Translations under genes and position numbers: made by a program | Source: Candidatus Staskawiczbacteria bacterium | GTDB lineage: Bacteria; Patescibacteriota; Minisyncoccia; Minisyncoccales; Staskawiczbacteraceae | DNA: 34,340 nucleotides | Assembly: GCA_903831095.1 (NCBI GenBank) | Contig: CAIKWD010000009.1 | Coordinates: 1-34,340, forward strand | Direction of reading: 5' to 3' | Shown: piece by piece, positions 9,658 through 31,559 of the stretch | Position numbering within the stretch: the first letter of the stretch is position 1 | Layout of the letters: every line of letters starts with the position of its first letter | Notes under the pieces: generated by a model | The model's database searches: none | Told to the model about the DNA's origin: nothing | Seen by the model: only the letters and a program-made list of their open reading frames with translations

Positions 9658-9738
9658 AATATCGCTCGGTAACAAACTTTTTTCCGGCTATCGGGCACTT
9701 TGTGTCCCGAGGCCTGCAAAAAGTTCATTGCCTCGCTA
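9658..9738. repeat. nested palindromic element, copy 1
   Basis: TCGCTCGGTAACAAACTTTTTT ... CACTTTGTGT ... AAAAAGTTCATTGCCTCGCT; ends 8 nt before the sod ATG. Confidence 0.8.
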
Positions 9739-19356: not shown

Positions 19357-20532
19357 ATGCAAAGTAAAAATAAAAAAATAAAAATTATAGTGGCAATGTC
19401 TGGGGGAGTGGATTCTAGCGTGGCGGCTGCTTTGGTAAAGCAGGCTGGCCTCGCCCGTGGCCGGTCTACGGCCGAGGGTTTTGACGCAGTTGGAATTTTT
19501 ATGAAGTTTTGGAAAGATGGCAAAAGTTCTGACAATAGATGTTGTTCTGTAGAATCGGAAAAATTAGCCAGATTGGTTGCTAAGAAAGTTGGCATTCCTT
19601 TCTATGTAATAAACGTTGAAAAAGAATTTAAGCAGAAAGTTGTTGATTATTTTTTGAAGGAATACAAAAAGGGAAACACTCCAAACCCATGTGTGGTTTG
19701 CAACAAGGAAATAAAGTTTGGATTTTTAGTGAAAAAAGCTTTGTCGCTTGGCGCTGATTTTGTGGCAACAGGACATTACGTGCGTACTTCGCTCGCCAAT
19801 CATTCTCGCTCGGCAATAAACTTTTTTCCGTCTGCTGGTGGCCCCCTTTGCCTCTTCGGGCAAGTGGACCAGGGGACTGCAAAAAGTTCATTGCCTCGCT
19901 TGTTTATGGGCAAGGATGAAATTAAAGACCAGTCGTATTTTTTGTGGCAGTTAAGTAAAGAGCAGATAAAACATGTTTTGTTTCCGGTGGGTGGGTATAA
20001 CAAGCCTGAAGTGAGAAAATTGGCCAAGAAATTTGATTTACCAACAGCAGAAACGCCGGAGTCTCAGGAAGTTTGTTTTGTGCAGAACACTACCAACGAA
20101 TTTTTAAACAAGTATTTAAAAGCAAAGCCCGGTAAAATTGTAAATACAAAAGGAGAAAAAGTGGGGCAGCACAATGGACTGTGGTTTTATACAATTGGGC
20201 AAAGAAGGGGATTGGAAATACCTCAGGGCCCATATTATGTTGTTGGTAAAGATTTTAAGAATAATATTCTAATAGTTTCTAAAGATCAAAAAGATTTACT
20301 TAAGAAAGAATTGATAGCTTATAACGTTAATTGGACTGTTCCTCAAAAACTTCCAATAAATGTAGAGGTAAAAATAAGGTATAAAAGCGACTTTGCCAAA
20401 GCCAAGATTTTTGCAGATGGCAAAAACAAAGTAAAGATTATTTTCCAGAAGAATCAAAGAGCTATAACTCCAGGCCAATCAGCAGTTTTCTACAAGGGAA
20501 AAGAGCTTTTGGGAGGCGGAGTTATAGAATAA
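19357..20532 (+). CDS. mnmA: tRNA-specific 2-thiouridylase MnmA, carrying two in-frame palindromic insertions
   Basis: VAMSGGVDSSVAA, NTPNPCVVCNKEIKFG, ADFVATGHYVR, KDQSYFLWQLSKEQI, ETPESQEVCFV, GEKVGQHNGLWFYTIGQRRGL. Confidence 0.94.
   Translation: MQSKNKKIKIIVAMSGGVDSSVAAALVKQAGLARGRSTAEGFDAVGIFMKFWKDGKSSDNRCCSVESEKLARLVAKKVGIPFYVINVEKEFKQKVVDYFLKEYKKGNTPNPCVVCNKEIKFGFLVKKALSLGADFVATGHYVRTSLANHSRSAINFFPSAGGPLCLFGQVDQGTAKSSLPRLFMGKDEIKDQSYFLWQLSKEQIKHVLFPVGGYNKPEVRKLAKKFDLPTAETPESQEVCFVQNTTNEFLNKYLKAKPGKIVNTKGEKVGQHNGLWFYTIGQRRGLEIPQGPYYVVGKDFKNNILIVSKDQKDLLKKELIAYNVNWTVPQKLPINVEVKIRYKSDFAKAKIFADGKNKVKIIFQKNQRAITPGQSAVFYKGKELLGGGVIE
19449..19477. repeat. GC-rich palindrome inside mnmA, same family as 3648-3686
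   Basis: CCTCGCCCGTGGCCGGTCTACGGCCGAGG; encodes the extra LARGRSTAEG segment. Confidence 0.72.
19788..19900. repeat. nested palindromic element, copy 2, in frame inside mnmA
   Basis: TTCGCTCGCCAAT...TCGCTCGGCAATAAACTTTTTTCCGTCTGCTGGTGGCCCCCTTTG...CAAGTGGACCAGGGGACTGCAAAAAGTTCATTGCCTCGCT. Confidence 0.85.
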
Positions 20533-22286: not shown

Positions 22287-22420
22287 TCGCTCGGTAACAA
22301 ACTTTTTACGCTTGGCAATAAACTTTTTTTCGTCTGCTGGTGCCCCCTTTGTCCTGCTGGACAAGTGGACCAGGGGACTTCAAAAAGTTCATTGCCTCGC
22401 TAGAATATGTTATCTCGCTT
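22287..22420. repeat. nested palindromic element, copy 3
   Basis: Starts 2 nt after the stop at 22284 and ends 9 nt before ATG 22430; core TCTGCTGGTGCCCCCTTTGTCC-TGCT-GGACAAGTGGACCAGGGGACT is homologous to the mnmA copy. Confidence 0.85.
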
Positions 22421-27817: not shown

Positions 27818-27979
27818 TCGCTCAGCAACAAGTTTTTCGCTCGGCAATCAAACTTTTTTAACGCTCAATAATAAACTTTTTCTGCGAGGAGAGCCTCTCT
27901 ACGGGGCACCCTCTTCTCGAAAAAGTTCATTACTTCGCTATAAGTTTGTTGTCTCGCTCTAAATTAATTGCTTCGCTTA
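27818..27979. repeat. nested palindromic element, copy 4 (three-tier)
   Basis: TCGCTCAGCAACAAGTTTTTCGCTCGGCAATCAAACTTTTTTAACGCTCAATAATAAACTTTTT ... AAAAAGTTCATTACTTCGCTATAAGTTTGTTGTCTCGCTCTAAATTAATTGCTTCGCTT; ends 8 nt before ATG 27988. Confidence 0.83.
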
Positions 27980-28796: not shown

Positions 28797-29324
28797 ATGA
28801 AAATATCCATTACTGATAAATTTCTTTGGGATGTTTATTATTTCCTTGAAAAAACGAATAATATCACAAGCTCTATGTTGAAGGCGCCAACTATGAGGAA
28901 TTGGTTACCCGAAGAGAAAAATCCGATTTTTGAAAAATATAAGAAGGAAAATGGCAGGAAAGAATTTAGCAATCTTATTTATTATTTGAAAAGGAAAGGG
29001 TATATTAAGTCGAAAAATTTGGAGAATAAAAAGGGAATGATAATTACAAAAATTGGAATGGACAAGGCACTGGCAGCCAGCTTTAAATTGGGAAAAGGGA
29101 AAAAGAGAGAAGATGGAAAATGGATAATGTTAATTTTTGATATACCCCGGGCCCATAGAAGATCAAGAGATTTATTGAGAAGTATATTACTTAATTTAGG
29201 ATACAAGCTGTTTCAGCAAAGCGTTTGGATAACCCCGTATGATGTTTCCGAAAGAACTGAAAAATTACTTCAGGAGTATTCACTTGATCAATATGTTAAA
29301 ATATTCGTGATTGAAGAGTTATAA
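28797..29324 (+). CDS. PaaX-like / Cas2-like domain protein (putative regulator)
   Basis: FSNLIYYLKRKGYIKSKN (winged-helix-like) followed by KWIMLIFDIPRAHRRSRDLLRSILLNLGYKLFQQSVWITPYDVSERTEKLLQEYSLDQYVKIFVIEEL (Cas2/PaaX ferredoxin-like fold). Confidence 0.72.
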   Translation: MKISITDKFLWDVYYFLEKTNNITSSMLKAPTMRNWLPEEKNPIFEKYKKENGRKEFSNLIYYLKRKGYIKSKNLENKKGMIITKIGMDKALAASFKLGKGKKREDGKWIMLIFDIPRAHRRSRDLLRSILLNLGYKLFQQSVWITPYDVSERTEKLLQEYSLDQYVKIFVIEEL

Positions 29325-29420: not shown

Positions 29421-30290
29421 ATGCAGAAAAAGATAATAATATTTATTGCGGTATTTTTATTCTTTCTGAATATTATTTGTTGGAGGGAAGTTTTTGTTTT
29501 GTCGGAAAATAAATTGTTAAAAGTTGATTTTTTGGATGTGGGGCAAGGTGATTCGGTTTTTATACAGACTCCGGAAAACCATCAAATTTTAATTGATGGA
29601 GGACCGGATTCATCTTTGTTGAGAAAATTGTCCGTGGTAATGCCGTTTTGGGATAGGACATTTGACTTAGTTGTCCTATCGCACCCAGAGTCCGATCACA
29701 TGCAGGGGCTTTTAGAAGCATTACAAAGTTATAAAGCAGATTATATTTTGTGGTCGGGCGTTAAAAAGGTAAATTCTCCGGAATATGACAAATGGATTAG
29801 TATTTTAGACAAACAACAAAAAATGGGAGCTAAAATTTTAATTGCACAAGCAGGTCAGGAAATAAAAGCCGGAAACGTTTTGATTGAAACTTTGTATCCA
29901 TTTGAAAGTTTGGAAGGAAAAGAAATGAAAAAAACTTCAAATGATAGTTGCGTTGTTGCAAAATTAATTTATGGAAAAGACTCTTTTCTTTTTGTTGGAG
30001 ATATAAGCTCTGTGGCAGAAAAAGAATTGGCTGATTCCAAGGAAAATATAAAATCTGAAGTTTTGAAAGTGGCGCACCATGGGTCTAAATATTCTACTTC
30101 TGACTTGTTTTTGGAAAATGTAAGGCCGGAAGTAGCTGTAATTTCTGTGGGAGCTAAAAATACTTATGGCCATCCTACACTTGAGGTTTTGCAAAGATTA
30201 GAAAAATCTGGTATAAAGATGTTTAGAACCGACAAAGACGGCGATATAATGTTTGTCTCTGACGGAAATAAAATAATTAAATTTCAGTAA
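29421..30290 (+). CDS. ComEC/Rec2-type metallo-beta-lactamase domain protein
   Basis: KVDFLDVGQGDSVFIQTPENHQILIDGGPDSS, VLSHPESDHMQGL, VLKVAHHGSKYSTS, YGHPTLEVLQRL. Confidence 0.9.
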   Translation: MQKKIIIFIAVFLFFLNIICWREVFVLSENKLLKVDFLDVGQGDSVFIQTPENHQILIDGGPDSSLLRKLSVVMPFWDRTFDLVVLSHPESDHMQGLLEALQSYKADYILWSGVKKVNSPEYDKWISILDKQQKMGAKILIAQAGQEIKAGNVLIETLYPFESLEGKEMKKTSNDSCVVAKLIYGKDSFLFVGDISSVAEKELADSKENIKSEVLKVAHHGSKYSTSDLFLENVRPEVAVISVGAKNTYGHPTLEVLQRLEKSGIKMFRTDKDGDIMFVSDGNKIIKFQ

Positions 30291-30295
30291 TAACA

Positions 30296-30460
30296 TCGCT
30301 TGGTAAAGAACTTTTTTCGCTCGCCAATCAAACTTTTTTACGTTCGGTAATAAACTTTTCTGCGCTATTTCGCCACTTCGTGTGCGAAGGGCTTTCGAAA
30401 AGTTCATTACCTCACTTACGTTTAGTTTATTGGCTCGCTACAAAGTTTATTAACTCGCTT
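30296..30460. repeat. nested palindromic element, copy 5 (three-tier)
   Basis: Three nested arm pairs (GGTAAAGAAC/GTTTATTAAC, GCCAATCAAACT/AGTTTATTGGC, GGTAATAAACTTTTC/GAAAAGTTCATTACC) around a CACTTCGTG apical loop; ends 10 nt before ATG 30471. Confidence 0.87.
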
Positions 30461-30470
30461 AAAACATTTT

Positions 30471-31559
30471 ATGAAAGATTTAGATTTTCCGCTTTTTAAA
30501 ACAAAGAGCGACATATACAAAAAGTTTGATTTGACGGATATGAAAAGCCGCCAAGAGTATTTTGAGTACAAAGCAGGACCTGAAATAAAAAAGCTTCGTG
30601 AATATTTTAAAAGCAACACATTTATTGCTTATTTAATGGGAAAAAAGTCTTCTGGAAAAGGAACTTATGCTAAAATGTTGGCTGAGGTTATAGACAAGGA
30701 CAAAATTGCCCATTTTTCAATTGGAGACATGATAAGATCTTTTGACGAAACAATCAGAGATGAAGGTAAAAAAGCCGAGCTTGTAGAATTTTTAAAAAGC
30801 AATTATAGGGGATTTTTGCCACTTGAGAAAATTATGGAAGCCTTGGAAACAAGGTCAACAAAAGTATTGCTTCCAACAGAATTGATTTTGGCTTTGGCAA
30901 AAAGAGAAATTTCCAAGCTTGGTAAAAAGACCATATTTATAGATGGATTTCCAAGAGATTTGGACCAGGTTTCTTATTCTTTATTCTTCAGGGATCTTAT
31001 TGGATACAGAGACGACCAAGACTTGTTTATTTTGATTGATGTCCCAACAACTGTTATTGATGAAAGGGTAAAATACAGGGTTATTTGTCCTATCTGCCAA
31101 ACATCTAGGAATTTGAAACTTTTGGCCACAAAATATGTTGAATATGACAAAGCTGCTGACAAGTTCCATCTATTGTGCGACAATTCAGCATGTTCTTCAG
31201 TATTGGAAGGAAAGCCAGCTAGAATGGTTACAAAAGAGGGCGACGAACAGGGAATTGCGCCAATCAAAGCAAGGTTGGACAAAGATGAAATGTTGGTAAA
31301 AGAAGCTTATAAATTGCAGGGAATTCCAAAAATTTTGTTAAGGAACACAATTCCAGTTGGAAAAACCAATGAAATTGCCGACGACTATGAAGTAACTCCA
31401 GGATATGTTTATTCATGGGATGAAAATGCACAAAAAGCCATAACTTCGGAAAAAGCCTGGGAAGTTGAAGATGACGAGGGGAATCTTTCCAACAGTTTGA
31501 TGCCACCTCCAGTAGTTGTTTCAATGATCAAACAGCTTGTCCAAGTATTGGGACTTTAA
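30471..31559 (+). CDS. adenylate kinase-family nucleoside monophosphate kinase, extended (362 aa)
   Basis: FIAYLMGKKSSGKGTYAKMLAEVI P-loop, FSIGDMIRS, FIDGFPRDLDQ, zinc-like CPIC...CDNSAC, APIKARLDKDE. Confidence 0.85.
   Translation: MKDLDFPLFKTKSDIYKKFDLTDMKSRQEYFEYKAGPEIKKLREYFKSNTFIAYLMGKKSSGKGTYAKMLAEVIDKDKIAHFSIGDMIRSFDETIRDEGKKAELVEFLKSNYRGFLPLEKIMEALETRSTKVLLPTELILALAKREISKLGKKTIFIDGFPRDLDQVSYSLFFRDLIGYRDDQDLFILIDVPTTVIDERVKYRVICPICQTSRNLKLLATKYVEYDKAADKFHLLCDNSACSSVLEGKPARMVTKEGDEQGIAPIKARLDKDEMLVKEAYKLQGIPKILLRNTIPVGKTNEIADDYEVTPGYVYSWDENAQKAITSEKAWEVEDDEGNLSNSLMPPPVVVSMIKQLVQVLGL

Follow-up and report, generated by a model that had tools for sequence, protein, structure and literature searches.

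Introduction

Several kinds of short palindromic repeat are dispersed through bacterial genomes. REP and REPIN sequences, with REP-associated tyrosine transposases (RAYT), are short intergenic palindromes with conserved ends and a variable centre, which form species-specific populations with several subfamilies per genome; movement as single-stranded DNA has been proposed for them (PMC3116915, PMC6006769). The palindromic elements of Rickettsia (RPEs) and Wolbachia are palindromes of ~100-150 nt in small genomes, and their mobiliser is unidentified (PMC2229807, PMC10969869). They lie in spacers and also in-frame in conserved protein genes. IS200/IS605 elements are documented to move as single-stranded DNA through the lagging-strand template, without target duplication, and they and their derived MITEs have an orientation tied to that template, no target-site duplication and hairpin ends (PMC6006769). 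Other bacterial MITEs (Correia/NEMIS, ERIC and RUP) are short, non-autonomous palindromes that can be transcribed as stem-loops and whose frames fuse to genes (PMC2229807). How elements of the REP and RPE type move is a long-standing open question.

Here we describe a palindrome family from a Staskawiczbacteria-like Patescibacterium in which the direction of insertion relative to the fork, nesting and the absence of the usual transposase can be read from the sequence. In literature on the Candidate Phyla Radiation, Staskawiczbacteria and Parcubacteria we found no such element, in a search that covered subscription papers thinly and leaves the absence unproven. The reviews of Rickettsia and Wolbachia elements (PMC2229807, PMC10969869) contained no statement that we could find on nesting or replication polarity of RPEs.

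Results

A three-tier palindrome between two conserved genes

The window, which is the whole stretch of DNA that was analysed (34,340 nt), is contig C9 of a genome of 806 kb that is 97% complete (G000). The MnmA encoded in it has homologues in Candidatus Staskawiczbacteria MAGs. Positions 30296-30459 hold a nested palindrome with three tiers, flanked on one side by a comEC-type MBL gene and on the other by an adenylate-kinase-like gene. The stop codon of the MBL-fold gene is just before the element. The features are:

29421..30290, + strand: upstream neighbour, an MBL-fold gene matching the ComEC C-terminal domain (Pfam PF00753; TIGR00361 positions 438-663)
30296..30317, + strand: outer-tier 5' arm, TCGCTTGGTAAAGAACTTTTTT, read directly; pairs with 30440-30459
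30318..30339, + strand: middle-tier 5' arm, CGCTCGCCAATCAAACTTTTTT, of the GCCAA/TTGGC subfamily; solitary relatives in L139, L143 and L159
30340..30416, + strand: inner complete unit with apical hairpin TTCGCC-ACTTCGTG-TGCGAA (covariance-model match, 84.6 bits)
30418..30439, + strand: middle-tier 3' arm, ACGTTTAGTTTATTGGCTCGCT
30440..30459, + strand: outer-tier 3' arm, ACAAAGTTTATTAACTCGCT
30471..31559, + strand: downstream neighbour, an adenylate-kinase-like gene (Pfam PF00406), used in the comparison of occupied and empty sites

An earlier note on this DNA had read three nested arm pairs here, and the outer arms, the middle arms and the inner unit could all be located. As it had also claimed, the tiers pair despite their differing sequences, both in the middle (GCCAAT/ATTGGC) and in the inner tier (GGTAAT/ATTACC); the outer tier has decayed in part. 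Folded as single-stranded DNA, the element as a whole forms nested helices (z = -2.8 for DNA folding energy), and 1 of 200 dinucleotide shuffles folds as well. The TCGCT that had been noticed at tier boundaries is indeed there, and it is a direct, not an inverted, repeat at both ends of each unit.

Two observations concern the surroundings. ComEC appears to be split in G000: its MBL C-terminal domain is the separate gene at 29421-30290, and its N-terminal competence part is on contig C26 (L112, C26:24265), where it carries an in-frame copy of the element. A gene with a PaaX_M (Cas2-like) domain lies at 28797-29324, near two tiered copies; its similarity to PaaX is weak only.

A dispersed family with fixed ends and a variable centre

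All five copies that had been picked out in the window (9662, 19806, 22308, 27861 and 30340) are real. The remaining four, with the gene that hosts one of them, are:

9662..9737, + strand: single-tier copy, apical class 1 (GGCTATCGGGCACTTTGTGTCCCGAGGCC), 93.8 bits
19357..20532, + strand: mnmA (tRNA 2-thiouridylase; Pfam PF03054, PF20259, PF20258), host gene of an in-frame copy
19788..19900, + strand: in-frame copy inside mnmA, a unit at 19806-19900 plus a decayed outer 5' arm from ~19788
22287..22419, + strand: two-tier copy, inner unit 22308-22401, class 2 apical hairpin
27818..27977, + strand: three-tier copy, inner unit 27861-27939, class 4 apical hairpin

One unit is ~70-105 nt long, with ends (T/A)CGCTCGGCAA...TTGCCTCGCT, complementary T-run and A-run arms and a fast-changing central hairpin. 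The ends are fixed as (T/A)CGCTCGGCAAYMAAnTTTTTT ... AAAAAnTTYATTRCCTCGCT around a variable, covarying apical hairpin; in the unit alignment they read (T/A)CGCTCGGYAAYMAACTTTTTT and AAAAAGTTYATTRCCTCGCT, and the central hairpin falls into at least five classes. The foot is (T/A)CGCTC / TCGCT in nearly all of 77-78 units. Apical stems covary, as had been claimed, between the 9662 type (CGGGC-ACTTTGTG-TCCCG) and the 30340 type. In the named structure, the 22 units from the genome itself have double-sided changes at 12 of 27 pairs. Their covariation score was 0.261, compared to 0.121 in shuffles, with 0 of 500 shuffles as high and slid controls at or below 0.07.

The genome holds further copies beyond those of the window, so the outcome that the earlier note had named as refuting, a lack of such copies, does not apply. 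The family has ~25 dispersed copies in G000 (22 full units, read from contigs and from stretches around copies, and at least three more, one in L112 and two in C29), and one-, two- and three-tier forms coexist. A covariance model was built from the G000 units. Since the element is a palindrome, the model also gives some signal on the mirror strand, and mirror-strand rows were ignored. In 9 of the 12 same-genus genomes the model gave strong matches, from two rows to about two dozen per genome; the seven genomes from other families gave a single weak match. Further out, relatives are sparse: they occur in a genus of the same family (G081), and G015, G051 and G060 have longer forms that share the 3' end. 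An Rfam scan of the window returned tRNAs and two sub-threshold sRNA matches only, none at the element. In IMG/VR, the 3' end of the element had no match and the three matches to its 5' end, all in coding sequence, were due to chance; a viral vector was rejected on this result.

Occupied and empty sites

When occupied and empty sites were compared, the site of the window element was empty in eight sister species: the flanking genes are almost adjacent in these 8 genomes, and G000 has an insert of ~163 nt. G002 has a different tiered palindrome at this site between the comEC-type MBL and adk-like genes. Upstream of rplL, which was matched in 12 of 12 genomes with a query based on the L7/L12 consensus and not on the window, members of the family were found in five genomes and unrelated palindromes in five others.

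For 43 of 78 units, the nearest relative was a copy within its own genome (expected 12.4, maximum 25 in 1000 shuffles), and copies at the same site in different species were mostly less alike than copies within a genome. These two results point to bursts of amplification within single species, with copies landing in a limited number of places that tolerate them. Concerted evolution at the sites themselves may also contribute to the likeness of copies in the same genome. Vertical inheritance at shared spacers was rejected, as within-genome copies were mostly more similar than same-site copies, with mnmA in G000 and G001 as the exception.

The other palindromes upstream of rplL and of the adk-like gene (G011, G005, G008 and G001; L247, L173, L248, L242 and L244) fold with z of -3.5 to -8.3, and in several of them the arms are repeated (CTAATT type, GTATAGGG type). 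Families that are unrelated in sequence but alike in build may take one another's place at the same spacers from one Patescibacteria species to the next.

Nesting of units

The single, two- and three-tier forms (on C26, on C29 and in the window) have a common inner unit. The inner unit of the window element differs from the solitary copy G000:C26:144002 at 3 positions in 77 nt, two of which (unit columns 4 and 75) are one compensated pair, C-G to T-A. It has 1 difference from the inner unit of the two-tier copy G000:C29:34498. This two-tier copy is 94% identical to the window element over 127 nt, and the composite has therefore spread as one piece. The GCCAA/TTGGC tier belongs to a subfamily that has solitary copies in G001, G009 and G004. 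Across the family, 9 of 78 units had co-oriented outer arms on both sides, compared to ~0.03 expected by chance, and none had them in the opposite orientation. In mnmA there is one tier in G009, and a second unit inside an older, decayed one in G001 and G000. At C29:9249 and at the adk site of G002, a small (A)CGCTCG...CTCGCT unit lies beside an intact resident apical hairpin, and these two cases show insertion most clearly. The order in which units inserted can be read from nested copies.

Tandem duplication without compensatory change, the other outcome that the earlier note had named as refuting, fails as an explanation, because the stem of each tier pairs through a sequence of its own. The covariation between tiers that the earlier note had described stands as far as pairing goes; it is mostly explained by tiers that come from different subfamilies, not by co-evolution in place. 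In most nested cases there is no remnant of a resident apical module between the tiers, and one has to suppose that the module was replaced or that the resident had no hairpin. The idea that residents are commonly of a 43-nt form without a hairpin was not adopted as a rule, as only one intact solitary copy of such a unit was found in 12 genomes.

Could the tiers instead arise where they stand, their arms lengthened by foldback or template switching as replication slips in the hairpins, with dispersal through rare copying by polymerase error and without a transposase? The junctions between tiers are clean, at T-runs and free of module remnants, and the unrelated families in sister species likewise have repeated, tier-like arms. 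No Y1 or reverse transcriptase gene was found, and template switching on the lagging strand also predicts the replication polarity described below. Such growth does not account well for tiers of different subfamilies that are known as solitary copies, for inner units that have 96-99% identity with copies at other sites, whether solitary or composite, or for the two cases in which a whole TCGCT-bounded unit lies next to an intact resident apical hairpin. We consider it unlikely.

In-frame copies inside genes

The unit at 19806-19900 leaves the mnmA frame unbroken and adds ~35 amino acids where solved MnmA has a 7-residue loop. Family members occupy this loop in three more species (G001, G009 and G002), so that mnmA copies are found in four species. 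In two further species (L077 and L079) the loop holds two other palindrome families, and in L080 and L081 there is little if any insert. The MnmA loop is a tolerated hot spot for palindromes. In-frame units were also found in miaB, truB and tgt (G007) and in comEC (G000 and G004), with open frames throughout.

Counted across species, the MnmA loop (19771-19941 in the window; L077 and L079) holds palindromes of at least three unrelated families, all in-frame; the other two are of the GGATTCCCGC...GCGGGAATGAC type and the CATTGCGAGG...CCTCGCAATG type. The MiaB of L042 (1194-2507) has a DPSTSSGQ-like peptide besides its in-frame element, and this peptide may be a further palindrome-derived in-frame insertion.

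Orientation follows replication

To separate replication from transcription, orientation was compared with the GC skew at third codon positions, taken as the mean for genes on both strands within ~20 kb around each copy. With this coding-corrected skew, 64 of 68 copies were oriented on the GC-skew leading strand; agreement with the gene strand was 51 of 64. Where gene strand and skew strand were discordant, 11 of 13 copies followed the skew (p = 0.022). This decisive set is small (n=13), and polarity as a whole is judged from GC skew, a proxy, in contigs of draft MAGs. In regions where genes of both strands gave the same skew sign, 32 of 34 copies agreed. Among the four exceptions, one is at near-zero skew (C6) and one has conflicting skew estimates (C74 of G001).

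Contig C26 has minus copies at 6.5 and 24 kb and plus copies at 144, 154 and 170 kb. Its skew changes sign near 100-120 kb, and dnaA is at 105 kb (L251, G000:C26:105384-105866). With dnaA at the GC-skew switch, the replication origin is placed there, and C26 therefore crosses the origin. The orientation of the element follows replication rather than the gene strand, and from the skew polarity the top strand of the element is the lagging-strand template. This replication polarity is what is new about this palindrome family; the earlier note had described neither it nor the in-frame copies in coding sequence.

The orientation data also bear on the idea that the element is a selected structured RNA or a regulatory hairpin, acting in intercistronic mRNA stability or termination and oriented by transcription. 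Copies lie between the stop codon and the start region of co-directional genes, where 47 of 54 are sense and 7 antisense; the stems covary strongly; and spacers of ribosomal-protein and translation genes are occupied repeatedly. However, it is replication that 11 of 13 copies follow when the two strands disagree, and some copies are antisense to their operon or lie in opposite-strand genes (miaB). The same sites are empty or hold unrelated palindromes in sister species, and copies inside coding frames exist. Moreover, the covariation needs no RNA function, because subfamily amplification keeps palindromy. A selected RNA or regulatory role is therefore quite improbable.

Search for a mobiliser and for target sites

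No match to the Y1 transposase (PF01797) was found in G000. PF01797 matches were present in 8 of 19 relatives with no link to the presence of the element: G005 and G011 have Y1 without elements, and G007 and G009 have elements without Y1. There were no element ends beside the Y1 genes examined. Reverse transcriptase was not found in G000, and its presence in the genus does not track the element. Both enzymes were rejected as the mobiliser, as neither tracks the element.

Over 77 copies, with statistics in place of a base-exact empty site, there was no clear excess of matching at any offset that would indicate a target-site duplication. No GT[AG]G tetranucleotide was seen at the foot of the hairpin, which has TCGCT instead. 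Separate subterminal hairpins with guide tetranucleotides at the left and right ends are not present; one hairpin spans each unit. Although the element is short, dispersed and non-coding with inverted repeats at its ends, an ordinary DDE-transposase MITE with terminal inverted repeats is highly improbable given the lack of a duplication signal at any tested offset, ends that are direct TCGCT repeats outside the paired stem, and a strong replication polarity that is unexpected for double-strand cut-and-paste.

The proposal in the earlier note of a MITE/REP-like element that grows by nested insertion is supported. Dispersal, species-specific amplification, empty sites, the different tier forms and units in the apices of residents that keep their own apical hairpin all agree with it. 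Its classical MITE part does not hold, with neither a target-site duplication nor a parent transposase found.

Discussion

The data above are probably best explained by a non-autonomous palindromic element of the REP/RPE kind that spreads via the single-stranded lagging-strand template, including into the apices of resident copies. The polarity of the family suggests that it spreads at the fork, by way of single-stranded DNA. The strand that reads TCGCTCGG...CCTCGCT would be exposed as single-stranded lagging-strand template during replication and would then fold. Excision or copying could release the folded top strand in single-stranded form, to be joined into a further stretch that is also single-stranded; such joining, following the logic of IS200/IS605 and REPs, would need no target duplication. 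A folded resident copy would be a favoured target at its apex, giving nested, co-oriented tiers such as those at 30296-30459; the tiers would always be co-oriented because the fork direction is common to the resident and the inserted unit. Loss of the enzyme, its supply from another cell or element, or an enzyme of another family could explain why neither a Y1 transposase nor a reverse transcriptase gene was found. Spread by replication template switching could take the place of an enzyme, and template switching in lagging-strand synthesis is a live alternative.

By behaviour, REP/REPIN sequences and the Rickettsia palindromic elements are the closest known systems. With REPs and REPINs the element shares its dispersal between genes, its conserved ends and its variable spacer. 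Unlike them, it has a TCGCT foot without GT[AG]G (or a CGTC-type motif), its arms are not hairpins on their own, there is no RAYT/Y1 gene in G000, and it nests co-oriented to three tiers and inserts in-frame in conserved genes. RPEs are from another lineage and are likened to it here by description, not by sequence; they share with it the use of spacers and of conserved protein genes (mnmA, miaB, truB, tgt and comEC in this family), whereas nested tiers and replication polarity are seen here. The element shares with IS200/IS605 its strand polarity relative to the fork and the lack of target-site duplication. In contrast to IS200/IS605, it is without tnpA and tnpB, has one unit-spanning hairpin and has no defined tetranucleotide target shown. 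Correia/NEMIS, ERIC and RUP have target-site duplications, mostly TA ends and a DDE-type parent, known or presumed, none of which was seen for the element. As two REP tests (foot and RAYT) and the DDE-MITE test failed, the element was not filed as either.

Ultra-small Patescibacteria genomes are regarded as streamlined, yet in this lineage a family of active-looking selfish palindromes enters core tRNA-modification genes in-frame. Unrelated palindromes recur in the same spacers and in the MnmA loop, and therefore mark where a compact genome tolerates DNA. It is possible, but on balance doubtful, that the family represents a mobile palindrome that uses the lagging-strand template without a known HUH/Y1 transposase (through another enzyme or template switching) and lands in resident apices, with unrelated families perhaps swapping at spacers.

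Two further observations concern relatives and variants. L167, L255 and L256 (G015, G060 and G051), from other families of the order, are longer palindromes with the 3' end TTTATTGCCTCGCTT or near it, and are possible ancestral or larger relatives of the family. In two class-2 units (L020 1415-1519 and L032 685-789) the apical loop contains TTCGA.TACGCTCA as an additional segment, which resembles a REP-like hairpin widespread in other bacteria.
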